A DNA stretch of 36,996 nt from Marinilabiliaceae bacterium (GTDB lineage Bacteria > Bacteroidota > Bacteroidia > Bacteroidales > Marinilabiliaceae), in the NCBI GenBank assembly GCA_027034005.1, contig JALVJU010000265.1:1-36996 (forward strand), in the 5' to 3' direction. The notes beneath the pieces are model-generated. The model was not told where the DNA came from. It saw only the letters and a list, made by a program, of their open reading frames with translations, and searched no databases. Positions 18,805 through 23,534 of the stretch are shown piece after piece. A program made the position numbers and the translations under genes. The stretch's first letter is position 1. The number at the start of each line of letters is the position of its first letter.

Positions 18805-18836
18805 TTTGGAAATTATAATTATCTGACATATTTTTG
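18805..18836 (+). promoter_or_regulatory. Bacteroidetes-type promoter of the his operon
   Basis: -33 TTTG (18805..18808), 20 bp spacer, -7 TATTTTTG (18829..18836, TAnnTTTG consensus), about 20 bp before the leader ATG. Confidence 0.6.
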
Positions 18837-18855
18837 CTTTCGAATTACAAGAAGC

Positions 18856-18909
18856 ATGACAGTAGAAAGACATCATACTCACCATCATCATTTCCTGCTT
18901 TTGCGGTAG
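18856..18909 (+). CDS. Histidine-rich his operon leader peptide MTVERHHTHHHHFLLLR*
   Basis: 17-codon ORF with 6 His codons (HHTHHHH) immediately upstream of a terminator-like hairpin and hisG; below the size cutoff of the ORF track. Confidence 0.85.
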   Translation: MTVERHHTHHHHFLLLR

Positions 18910-18942
18910 GCCGGTGAAGTATTGTCTTAAAATGATATTTTT

Positions 18943-18973
18943 AAAGAGGCTTGCCGGATGGTGAGCCTTTTTT
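18943..18973 (+). terminator. Attenuator terminator between his leader peptide and hisG
   Basis: Stem AAAGAGGCT ... AGCCTTTTT (one G-U) running into a T tract; positioned after the His leader and before hisG at 18992. Confidence 0.72.
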
Positions 18974-18991
18974 ATTTAAAAAAGAAAAAAG

Positions 18992-19852
18992 ATGAAGACA
19001 AAGATCAGAATTGCATTGCAAAAAAAGGGTCGTTTGAACGAAGACTCGATGAAATTGTTTAAAGAGGCAGGAATTAAGTTTAATGTGGGCAGTGGAAAGC
19101 TTGTGGCATCATCGCCGGGTTTCCCCATCGAGGTGCTCTTCCTCCGGGATGATGATATCCCGCAGACTGTTGCTGATGGTGTTGCCGATATAGGCGTTGT
19201 GGGAGAGAACGAGATGTATGAAAAAGGGTACGAGGTTGATATTGCGCGTAAGCTGGGATTTGGCAAATGCCGGTTGTCGCTTGCCGTTCCTAAAGCACAG
19301 GATTATCCGGGCATTGAGTGGTTCAACGGGAAGAAAGTCGCTACATCGTACCCCAACATTCTTAAGAAGTATTTTGATGAGAATGGAGTTGAGGCAGATA
19401 TTCATGAGATAGCCGGCTCGGTGGAGATAGCTCCCGGAATTGGCCTTGCTGATGCAATTTTCGATATTGTTTCTTCAGGAAGCACACTTGTCGCAAACCG
19501 CCTCAGAGAGGTTGATGTAGCAATGTATTCTGAGGCTGTCCTGATAGCTAAGAAAGGTCTTGAGCCGGAAAAACAGGAGTTACTTGAAGAACTGATCTTT
19601 CGAATCAATGCGGTGCAAACAGCCAACTCGAACAAATACGTGTTGTTGAATGCTCCCAACGACAAAGTTGAAGAGATTGTAAAGATATTGCCCGGCATGA
19701 AAAGTCCCACAGTCCTTCCCCTTGCCGACAAAAACTGGAGTTCAATTCACTCGGTCATCAGCGAAGATGAATTCTGGGATGTGATAGGCAAGCTTAAGGC
19801 AAATGGTGCCGAGGGAATTCTGATCATCCCGATAGAAAAGATGATCCTTTAA
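18992..19852 (+). CDS. hisG: ATP phosphoribosyltransferase (long form)
   Basis: 286 aa; IRIALQKKGRLNEDSMKLFKEAGI, VADIGVVGENEMYEKG, DIVSSGSTLVANRLREV, C-terminal regulatory domain. Confidence 0.96.
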   Translation: MKTKIRIALQKKGRLNEDSMKLFKEAGIKFNVGSGKLVASSPGFPIEVLFLRDDDIPQTVADGVADIGVVGENEMYEKGYEVDIARKLGFGKCRLSLAVPKAQDYPGIEWFNGKKVATSYPNILKKYFDENGVEADIHEIAGSVEIAPGIGLADAIFDIVSSGSTLVANRLREVDVAMYSEAVLIAKKGLEPEKQELLEELIFRINAVQTANSNKYVLLNAPNDKVEEIVKILPGMKSPTVLPLADKNWSSIHSVISEDEFWDVIGKLKANGAEGILIIPIEKMIL

Positions 19853-19871: not shown

Positions 19872-21149
19872 ATGAACACGATAAAATATCCGAAACAGGA
19901 AGATTGGGCCGACTTGCTGAAACGCCCCGAAAATGACATAACGGAACTCTTCGATACTGCCCGCATGGTACTTGACGAGGTGCGTAAAAAGGGTGACAGC
20001 GCCGTTAAGCGTTTCACGAAGATGTTCGACGGAATTGAAATTGGAAACTTGCAGGTGAGCGAAGCTGAGATAGCAGAAGCAGAGACAAATGTTCCCGAAG
20101 AGCTGAAAGGTGCCATCAGGAGTGCACGTGAAAATATTGAGAATTTTCATGCCATGCAGAAAGAGGGGGTGAGGATCATGGAGACCGCACCCGGGGTAAA
20201 ATGCTGGCAGAAAAGTGTGGCCATCGAAAAAATAGGGCTTTACATACCGGGAGGTTCGGCACCGTTGTTTTCAACAGTCCTGATGCTTGCAGTGCCTGCC
20301 CGGATCGCCGGTTGTTCAGAAGTGATACTGTGCACGCCCCCATCGAAAGACGGCAAGATCGACCCGGCGATACTTTACGCCGCATCGGTCACAGGCATTA
20401 CAAAGATATTCAAGGCAGGCGGAATACAGGCCATTGGTGCAATGGCCTACGGCACCGAAACAATACCCGGGGTGTTCAAGATCTTTGGCCCGGGCAACCA
20501 ATTCGTAACAGCAGCAAAACAGCTTGTCAGTCTTAAAGATGTTGCCATAGATATGCCTGCCGGTCCTTCTGAGGTTTTAGTGATGGCCGACAACAGTGCA
20601 AATCCCGTGTTCATTGCTGCCGATTTGTTGTCGCAGGCAGAACACGGTCCCGACAGCCAGGTGATATTTGTTACCAACAGCGAAGAATTGCTGGGCAAAG
20701 TGGAAGGAGAGGTCGAATTGCAGCTTGCAAAGCTGCCAAGGAAGGACATTGCTGCAAAAGCCCTTGCCAACAGCCGTCTGATACTGCTGAAAGATGAAGA
20801 AGAGATGATAGCCCTGGCAAACCGTTATGCGCCTGAACACCTTATCATCTCCATGCAAAAAGACGAAGAGGTGGCAGAAAAGATAGTTAACGCAGGGTCT
20901 GTTTTTCTTGGTAACTACACACCAGAAAGCGCCGGTGACTACGCCTCCGGTACGAACCACACCCTGCCGACCAATGGTTATGCTACAGCATACAGTGGCG
21001 TGAACCTTGATAGTTTTGTCAAGAAGATAACCTATCAAAAGATATCGAAAGAGGGCTTGCAGGGCCTTGGCCCGGTGATAGAGACAATGGCAACTGCCGA
21101 GCATCTCGATGCCCATAAAAACGCTGTTGCATTGAGGTTGAAGGATTGA
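19872..21149 (+). CDS. hisD: Histidinol dehydrogenase
   Basis: 425 aa; GLYIPGGSAPLFSTVLMLAVPA, KIFGPGNQFVTAAKQ, DMPAGPSEVLV, LLSQAEHGPDSQ. Confidence 0.97.
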   Translation: MNTIKYPKQEDWADLLKRPENDITELFDTARMVLDEVRKKGDSAVKRFTKMFDGIEIGNLQVSEAEIAEAETNVPEELKGAIRSARENIENFHAMQKEGVRIMETAPGVKCWQKSVAIEKIGLYIPGGSAPLFSTVLMLAVPARIAGCSEVILCTPPSKDGKIDPAILYAASVTGITKIFKAGGIQAIGAMAYGTETIPGVFKIFGPGNQFVTAAKQLVSLKDVAIDMPAGPSEVLVMADNSANPVFIAADLLSQAEHGPDSQVIFVTNSEELLGKVEGEVELQLAKLPRKDIAAKALANSRLILLKDEEEMIALANRYAPEHLIISMQKDEEVAEKIVNAGSVFLGNYTPESAGDYASGTNHTLPTNGYATAYSGVNLDSFVKKITYQKISKEGLQGLGPVIETMATAEHLDAHKNAVALRLKD

Positions 21150-21169: not shown

Positions 21170-22270
21170 ATGAAAAACCAGAAAGATTCAAAACAAAACA
21201 ATGTCAATAGACCTTCCCCCCTCAGGGGGGATAGAGGGGGGCTTCTTTCACGTCTCCTCCGCCCGAACATTGTCTCTTTAAAGCCATACTCTTCAGCGCG
21301 TGATGAGTTCAGCGGTGCGGATGCCATGTTCTTTGATGCCAATGAAAATCCGTTCAATGCACCGTACAATCGCTATCCCGACCCGTATCAATCGGAATTG
21401 AAAAAGAAGATAGGGGAGATAAAAGGCGTAGCGCCGGAAAATATCTTTCTCGGCAACGGCAGTGATGAGGCTATAGACCTGCTTTTCAGGGCATTTTGTA
21501 TCCCCGGAAAGGATAATGTGGTGTCGATAGACCCCACTTACGGAATGTATCAGGTGGCTGCCGACATCAACGATGTAGAGGTGCGAAAAGTCCTGCTAAA
21601 GCAGGATTTCGAATTGGATGTGCCGGGCTTGCTTAATACCGCCGATGAGAATACAAAGATGATTTTCATCTGTTCTCCCAACAATCCCACAGCCAATGTC
21701 TTTCGTGAAGAGGATATGCTCAAGGTGATTTCCGGTTTTGATGGTATTGTGGTAGTGGACGAGGCATACATTGACTTTGCTCCGGAGAAAACCCTGATGC
21801 ACAAGCTGGCAGATCATCCCAATCTGGTGATACTTCAAACATTTTCGAAGGCATGGGGAGTTGCAGCGATACGGCTTGGAATGGCTTTTGCTTCTAAGGA
21901 GATCATCGATGTGCTTAGCAAGATCAAGTATCCTTACAACGTGAACCTACTCACACAGGAAAAGGCATTGGAGTTCCTCGAAAATGCACAGCAGAAGGAC
22001 GATTGGGTCTCGGTGATACTAAGAGAAAAAGAGCGCCTGAAAAAGGCATTACAGCAGAACCCACTGATAAAAAAGATATATCCTTCGGATGCCAATTTTC
22101 TGCTCGTGGTAGTCGATGAGCCACAAAAAATATATGACTTGCTTGTGCAGAAAAAGCTCATCATACGTGATCGATCGAAAGTTGCCATGTGCGAAGGCTG
22201 CCTTCGTATCACCATTGGAACGCCGGAAGAGAATGATAAACTAATTGAGACACTGAAAGAGTTAAGTTGA
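21170..22270 (+). CDS. hisC: Histidinol-phosphate aminotransferase with repeat-derived N-terminal extension
   Basis: 366 aa; LRPNIVSLKPYSSARDEF, DANENPFNAPYNRYPDP, VVDEAYIDF, TFSKAWGVAAIRLG. The first ~26 aa (MKNQKDSKQNNVNRPSPLRGDRGGLL) are atypical. Confidence 0.95.
   Translation: MKNQKDSKQNNVNRPSPLRGDRGGLLSRLLRPNIVSLKPYSSARDEFSGADAMFFDANENPFNAPYNRYPDPYQSELKKKIGEIKGVAPENIFLGNGSDEAIDLLFRAFCIPGKDNVVSIDPTYGMYQVAADINDVEVRKVLLKQDFELDVPGLLNTADENTKMIFICSPNNPTANVFREEDMLKVISGFDGIVVVDEAYIDFAPEKTLMHKLADHPNLVILQTFSKAWGVAAIRLGMAFASKEIIDVLSKIKYPYNVNLLTQEKALEFLENAQQKDDWVSVILREKERLKKALQQNPLIKKIYPSDANFLLVVVDEPQKIYDLLVQKKLIIRDRSKVAMCEGCLRITIGTPEENDKLIETLKELS
21212..21245. repeat. GC-rich palindromic repeat inside the 5' end of hisC
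   Basis: CCTTCCCCCCTCAGGGGGGATAGAGGGGGGCT; hairpin CCCCCC-TCA-GGGGGG; translated as PSPLRGDRGGL. Confidence 0.65.
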
Positions 22271-22394: not shown

Positions 22395-23534
22395 ATGACA
22401 TCAACAAAGAAAAAAGTACTTTTTATCGACCGTGACGGAACCCTGATAGTGGAGCCGCCTGAAGATTTTCAGATAGACAGTCTTGAGAAACTGGAGTTTT
22501 ATCCGGGTGTTTTCAGGAATCTGTCCCGCATTGCCGGGACACTTGACTTTGAACTTGCCATGGTGTCAAACCAGGACGGACTGGGAACCGGTTCCTTCCC
22601 CGAAGACACATTCTGGCCCGCACACAATAAAATGCTTAAAGCCCTGGAGAATGAGGGGATAGTTTTTGACAAGATACATATCGATCCTTCACTGCCGGAG
22701 GAGAATTCGCCAAATCGCAAGCCGCGTACAGGGATGTTGCAGGAGTATATGAGCGATGAGTACGATCTGGAGAATTCGTATGTGATAGGCGACCGCATCA
22801 CCGATGTAGAACTTGCCAGAAACCTTGGCTGCAAGGCCATTTTTATGAAAGATGAGGCCGAAGGTGAGAAGATACTTGAAGAAAAAGGTTTTGAAGATGT
22901 CTGTGTTTTGCTCTCTCCCCGCTGGAGCGATGTTGCACGGTTCCTGTTCTCTGTGGAAAGGAGTGCCACTGTTGAGAGAAAGACCTCGGAGACTGATATC
23001 TTTGTCAGTATCGATCTCGACGGGAACGGCAAAACGGATATATCCACCGGTCTTGGCTTTTTCGACCACATGCTTGACCAGATAGGCAGGCACTCGGGGT
23101 GCGATCTTACAGTGAAAGTCAAAGGCGACCTGCATGTTGATGAGCACCACACTATCGAAGACACGGCACTTGCCCTTGGTGAGGCAGTGAAAAAAGCGCT
23201 GGGTGATAAGCGGGGGATTGAACGTTATGGCTTTGCACTGCCTATGGACGATTGTTCGGCGCAGGTGCTTATCGATTTTGGCGGCCGCCCGTGGCTGGTT
23301 TGGGATGCTGAGTTCAGGCGTGAAAAGGTGGGCGATATGCCTACTGAGATGTTCCTGCATTTTTTCAAAAGCTTCTCCGATGCTGCGGCATGCAATCTGA
23401 ACATCAAAGCCGAAGGGCAAAATGAGCATCACAAGATAGAAGGAATATTCAAGGCATTTGCCCGTGCCATTAAGATGGCAGTCCGGAAAGATCCCTTCGA
23501 CGATAAACTGCCCAGTACAAAGGGAGTGCTGTAA
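22395..23534 (+). CDS. hisB: Bifunctional histidinol-phosphatase / imidazoleglycerol-phosphate dehydratase
   Basis: 379 aa; HAD motif [10 protein letters not shown], then IGPD domain [36 protein letters not shown]. Confidence 0.97.

Follow-up and report, generated by a model that had tools for sequence, protein, structure and literature searches.

Introduction

In E. coli and Salmonella, hisG is preceded by the hisL leader (Rfam RF00514), in which a His-rich leader peptide is combined with mutually exclusive stems and an intrinsic terminator. A comparative study by Vitreschak and co-workers, published in 2004, reportedly mentions attenuators in Bacteroidetes/Chlorobi as well.

According to a survey of 2010, leader-peptide systems were known only from Proteobacteria and Actinobacteria, and the bacilli were added there (PMC2965389). 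A survey of 2022 added Firmicutes (PMC9413887), where candidate his attenuators of the Bacillus cereus group, Peptostreptococcaceae and Erysipelotrichales, comprising a His-rich leader peptide, a terminator and an antiterminator, were found by comparison; these candidates come from another phylum and from 17 genomes only, and are likened to the locus described here by design, not by homology. The main account of a study of Flavobacterium psychrophilum describes conserved structured 5' elements of hisG and pheA that have no hits in Rfam, and strong clues that leader-peptide attenuation acts ahead of amino-acid operons (PMC9723704). The hisG element of F. psychrophilum precedes the same gene in the same phylum as the locus considered here, but in another order, and the main account gives neither its structure nor covariation, phylum-wide spread or a tandem arrangement. 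The word "leader" is absent from the main text of a survey of 2021 that covers the his genes of the Bacteroidota superphylum (PMC8305728).

Here, we describe a leader of this kind in Marinilabiliaceae. It differs from hisL of E. coli and Salmonella in sequence and in promoter type, and RF00514 has no match in it. The principle is an ordinary one, widespread in the phylum, while the Bacteroidota version has no Rfam entry and has hardly been described. Its reach across the whole phylum and the serial attenuators of some relatives are less ordinary. We do not claim a first description of a Bacteroidota his attenuator; most subscription journals and all supplements lay outside our literature search.

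The leader locus and the his operon

The analysed stretch (the window) covers 36,996 nucleotides of a contig from a fragmented Bacteroidales (Marinilabiliaceae) genome assembly; the family also includes contigs of Carboxylicivirga, Thermophagus, Anaerophaga and Marinilabilia. The parts of the leader and the his genes listed below are on the forward strand. The histidine-synthesis operon hisGDCB consists of genes for ATP phosphoribosyltransferase (long form; hisG, 18992–19852; TIGR00070 and TIGR03455), histidinol dehydrogenase (hisD, 19872–21149; TIGR00069), histidinol-phosphate transaminase (hisC, 21170–22270; TIGR01141) and bifunctional histidinol-phosphatase/IGP dehydratase (hisB, 22395–23534; NF003937), all assigned by scores above the curated NCBIfam cut-offs. 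The attenuator site directly precedes this operon, which is the place of a leader-peptide attenuator.

The site starts with a promoter of the Bacteroidota type (18805–18836), where TTTG (18805–18808) is followed after 20 bp by TATTTTTG (18829–18836). Downstream lies a short ORF encoding the peptide MTVERHHTHHHHFLLLR (18856–18909; ATG at 18856, stop codon at 18907–18909), whose translation has six His in 17 codons, the His codons occupying positions 18871–18891. Each element noticed in the earlier, sequence-only reading of this DNA, namely the promoter, the His ORF, the hairpin with its T tract and hisG, is present in the sequence. Since the gene upstream of the leader is on the opposite strand, the leader needs a promoter of its own. 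The motif TTTG-N18–22-TAnnTTTG was observed upstream of 54 of the 87 distinct leader units, the expectation from mononucleotide shuffles being 0.17.

Conservation of the His-rich leader

When the 400 bases preceding hisG were dinucleotide-shuffled 2000 times, a comparable His-rich ORF arose only twice. Among the fetched loci, a His-rich leader precedes hisG in 95 of 124, compared with 0–1 in the shuffled sets; conservation of the His codons in relatives, on which the sequence-only reading had staked its interpretation, is hence observed, and the clustering of these codons in a short ORF is both strong in the window and conserved, as in leader-peptide attenuators. The same tendency holds for further Bacteroidota genomes, with a His-rich leader before hisG in 58 of 80 and a version with three His in eight more; outside the family, in genomes taken from the same order, other orders of the class and other classes of the phylum, the count is 52 of 73, plus the eight of the three-His version. 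A covariance model derived from 22 units matched 61 of the 71 genomes of the family, and in the window's own genome the attenuator site was its sole match. Recurrence of the design across Bacteroidota, together with the known hisG element of F. psychrophilum (PMC9723704), does not agree with the rarity outside Enterobacteria that the sequence-only reading had implied.

Some loci deserve separate mention. In L003 (G002, the window's genus), the leader and terminator are located approximately 270–380 bases upstream of hisG, rather than 20–136, and the extra stretch between the leader and hisG looks like a small insertion. Three MAGs carry hisG of the Bacteroidales type under unfitting titles (L032 and L066, titled Chlorobiota; L103, titled Akkermansia), and are probably mislabelled or mixed bins; genome comparison places L032 in the same genus as the window. 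The HisG protein of a relative, scanned against viral contigs, yielded no match.

A structured leader ahead of biosynthetic genes would also fit another RNA mechanism, such as a His T-box or a metabolite riboswitch, accompanied by a His-rich ORF that arose by chance. However, no Rfam family, RF00514 His_leader included, reaches the gathering score in the window, and conservation of the His-rich ORF is far above the chance level, so the probability left to this explanation is negligible. The His_leader scan, which the sequence-only reading had proposed, thus leaves the window unmatched; the same model gave nothing above the cut-off in 16 genomes of relatives, while the E. coli control was matched. 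Sub-threshold matches to other families (Phe_leader, Thr_leader) were far below the cut-off and were taken as chance.

Terminator

Between the leader ORF and the first gene of the operon there is an intrinsic terminator (18943–18973), formed by a 13-bp stem (18943–18955 with 18960–18972), the loop GGAU and a U tract at 18968–18973. Its hairpin reads AAAGAGGCTTGCC-GGAT-GGTGAGCCTTTTT (18943–18972), with the T tract extending to 18973. Covariation in the terminator is 0.335 compared with 0.218 in shuffles, none of 500 shuffles reaching the real value. The leader as a whole (147 bases) folds more stably than its own shuffles (z = -2.5). A simple terminator scan called no terminator here, as its stem rule appears to refuse a hairpin whose 3' arm enters the T tract; the fold and the covariation override this null result, and the terminator call stands.

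The terminator was the only element recovered by RNAalifold, which misses the stem 1:2 described below because this stem shifts by one base between groups.

Antiterminator and stem 1:2

The sequence CGGUAGGCC (18904–18912), overlapping the leader stop codon, is complementary to GGCUUGCCG (18948–18956) within the terminator 5' arm; hence the antiterminator and the terminator have one strand in common and are mutually exclusive. In the first alignment of all Marinilabiliaceae leaders the antiterminator strand was out of register, and a narrower set and an anchored count were used instead. By the anchored count, this strand pairs with the terminator 5' arm over at least 7 bp without interruption in 81 of the 87 units. 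The changes are compensatory: at one pair position we observe C-G in 23 cases, G-C in 21, U-A in nine and A-U in eight. In the alignment of 22 sequences, 87% of the cells of CGGUAGGCC x GGCUUGCCG are paired, and its covariation is reached by one of 500 shuffles.

The sequence-only reading had suggested a different antiterminator, CCGGTGA x TTGCCGG. This pairing exists letter for letter, as does the pairing of the His codons with the terminator discussed in the next section, but only 51% of its cells are paired and its covariation is matched by 115 of 500 shuffles. It is ruled out as a conserved antiterminator, being a neighbouring, overlapping register of CGGUAGGCC x GGCUUGCCG.

In the minimum free energy fold, a further stem, denoted 1:2 (the anti-antiterminator; 18867–18928), is formed by AAGACA..AUACUCACC (18867–18883) and GGUGA..GUAUUGUCUU (18913–18928). 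This stem was tested by permutation of partners rather than by RNAalifold. Native partners in the 87 units pair better than permuted ones by 2.2 kcal/mol on average (-14.7 vs. -12.5 kcal/mol, z = -8.3), a difference that, like the covariation values above, is inflated to some degree by the relatedness of the sequences.

Gene-proximal leader ORFs have been proposed to raise translation via reinitiation (PMC4833913), and one could suppose that the short ORF merely boosts translation of hisG by reinitiation or coupling, the hairpin being an unrelated terminator or an element of RNA stability. However, 82 nt separate the leader stop codon from hisG, with the terminator in between; the upstream neighbour gene is on the opposite strand; and the His codons, the promoter and the antiterminator are conserved together. 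We consider such a role of the ORF extremely improbable.

Pairing of the His codons with the terminator

The sequence-only reading also drew attention to a pairing between the His codons (18878–18886) and the terminator 3' arm (18957–18965), and suggested that it could change the switching logic. If so, the locus would be a variant attenuator, with the His codons serving as a direct antiterminator or an extra latch. The match CTCACCATC x GATGGTGAG is indeed perfect over 9 bp in the window and, at -16.4 kcal/mol, is the strongest among the 87 units; it covers 8 bp in L003 and 9 bp in L013, and overall the native pairs are slightly better than permuted ones (-6.9 vs. -6.3 kcal/mol). On the other hand, its covariation (0.087) is no higher than in shuffles (0.092), the value being reached by 329 of 500; the mean rank of the native partner in the family is 0.48, with 0.5 expected by chance; and in L004, from the same genus, the pairing is lost, leaving only -2.9 kcal/mol. 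Moreover, the His segment pairs with 18913–18917 (GGUGA), and the strand-2 region is similar to the terminator 3' arm GGUGAGCC. These two regions are presumably alike because both are partners of GGCUUGCC, and hence the His segment would fit the terminator arm as well. Thus, the match is probably a by-product of the antiterminator geometry, and a variant attenuator is very unlikely.

Comparison of relatives, therefore, gives a divided answer to the sequence-only reading: the terminator and CGGUAGGCC x GGCUUGCCG covary, whereas neither of the two pairings that it had put forward does. What holds is its his attenuator, which has a Bacteroidota promoter and no annotation in Rfam; the antiterminator that it named, the functional role of the His-codon pairing and the altered switching logic find no support.

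Proposed mechanism

Given the parts of the leader, their conservation, covariation and spacing, all of which are observed, the locus is very probably a ribosome-mediated attenuator of hisGDCB transcription with the classical logic, as in E. coli. From this design we infer the stalling, the ribosome–polymerase coupling, the termination and the response to histidine.

RNA polymerase would initiate shortly after the TTTG/TATTTTTG promoter, and the 17-codon leader would be transcribed first. If His-tRNA is ample, the ribosome would reach the stop codon (18907–18909) and mask positions 18904–18912, preventing their pairing with the terminator 5' arm; the terminator (18943–18972) would then form, and transcription would end before hisG. 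If His-tRNA is short, the ribosome would stall at 18871–18891, disrupting stem 1:2 and exposing 18904–18912, which, being free, would pair with 18948–18956 before the terminator 3' arm is made, so that transcription would continue. In the case of no translation, stem 1:2 (18867–18883 with 18913–18928) would form, leaving the terminator free.

The distance between the last His codon and the antiterminator has a median of 17 nt (13–21 nt in 73 of 81 units), and the leader stop codon is at most 11 nt from the antiterminator. As the ribosome footprint extends approximately 12–15 nt downstream of the P site (PMC3641672, citing older work), a ribosome stalled at a His codon would therefore free the antiterminator, whereas one at the stop codon would cover it; the spacing is thus that of an attenuator in which the antiterminator is alternately exposed and masked. 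Folding with a ribosome mask placed on the last His codon gave the antiterminator in all 81 units; with the mask on the stop codon, it formed in one of 81. This test is partly circular, since the units were chosen for antiterminator complementarity. The full leader without a ribosome folded into the terminator in 78 of the 81 units. When folding without a ribosome was halted before the terminator 3' arm, the antiterminator formed in 38 of 81, the window included; hence the untranslated state may terminate less cleanly than modelled, and here the attenuator model is at its least certain.

Tandem units and other candidate leaders in relatives

The window has a single attenuator unit. In 15 genomes of the family, mostly from the genus including Carboxylicivirga, two complete units, each with a His-rich ORF and a terminator, are arranged in series upstream of hisG (L006, L008, L009, L010, L014, L033, L037, L038, L112, L116–L118, L123, L124 and L203). 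In these tandem loci the promoter, where found, precedes the first unit only. Tandem His-rich leaders with terminators were also observed in L196 (G049), from another family of the order, approximately 440 and 300 bases upstream of hisG; being outside Marinilabiliaceae, this tandem is possibly an independent duplication.

The leader of Salmonella mgtCBR similarly combines two short-ORF attenuators, as in the relatives of Carboxylicivirga, but its units sense different signals and are unlike intrinsic terminators, whereas both units of the relatives have His codons and an intrinsic terminator (PMC3641672). In the open literature we found no account of tandem leader-peptide attenuators that sense the same signal, which is weak evidence of their absence from it.

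Leaders for other amino acids seem to be present as well. In the first 230 bases of L206–L210 and L214 there are leader peptides with Trp codons (e.g. MNLILTHKGWWHHTYLSTES in L209). A terminator comes next, and then a gene for a 471-residue protein that, judged by eye, resembles anthranilate synthase component I; these loci are candidate trp attenuators of the same design. In L211 (reverse strand), Ile-rich short ORFs MKNIVSIIISIIIDIS and MKTTLNIIISIIIIIPNTG are located at 100 and 224–233 with a terminator between them, and may constitute a tandem isoleucine attenuator. In the window's own genome, the stretch read before trpE (L218) has no trp leader, and the stretch fetched around hisA/hisF has no His-rich ORF.

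Implications

The his operons of Bacteroidota gain a concrete model of regulation that is specified to the base and can be tested. It seems reasonably likely that His attenuation by a leader peptide is old in Bacteroidota and common to the phylum, and that in Carboxylicivirga and some of its relatives the attenuator was duplicated, giving two complete His-sensing units in series behind a single promoter. If so, two termination decisions made on the same signal would multiply, sharpening the response to histidine, and the series arrangement in the relatives provides a natural test of stacking two identical sensors. As such attenuators need the ribosome to be close to RNA polymerase, their wide conservation is indirect evidence of transcription–translation coupling in the phylum.
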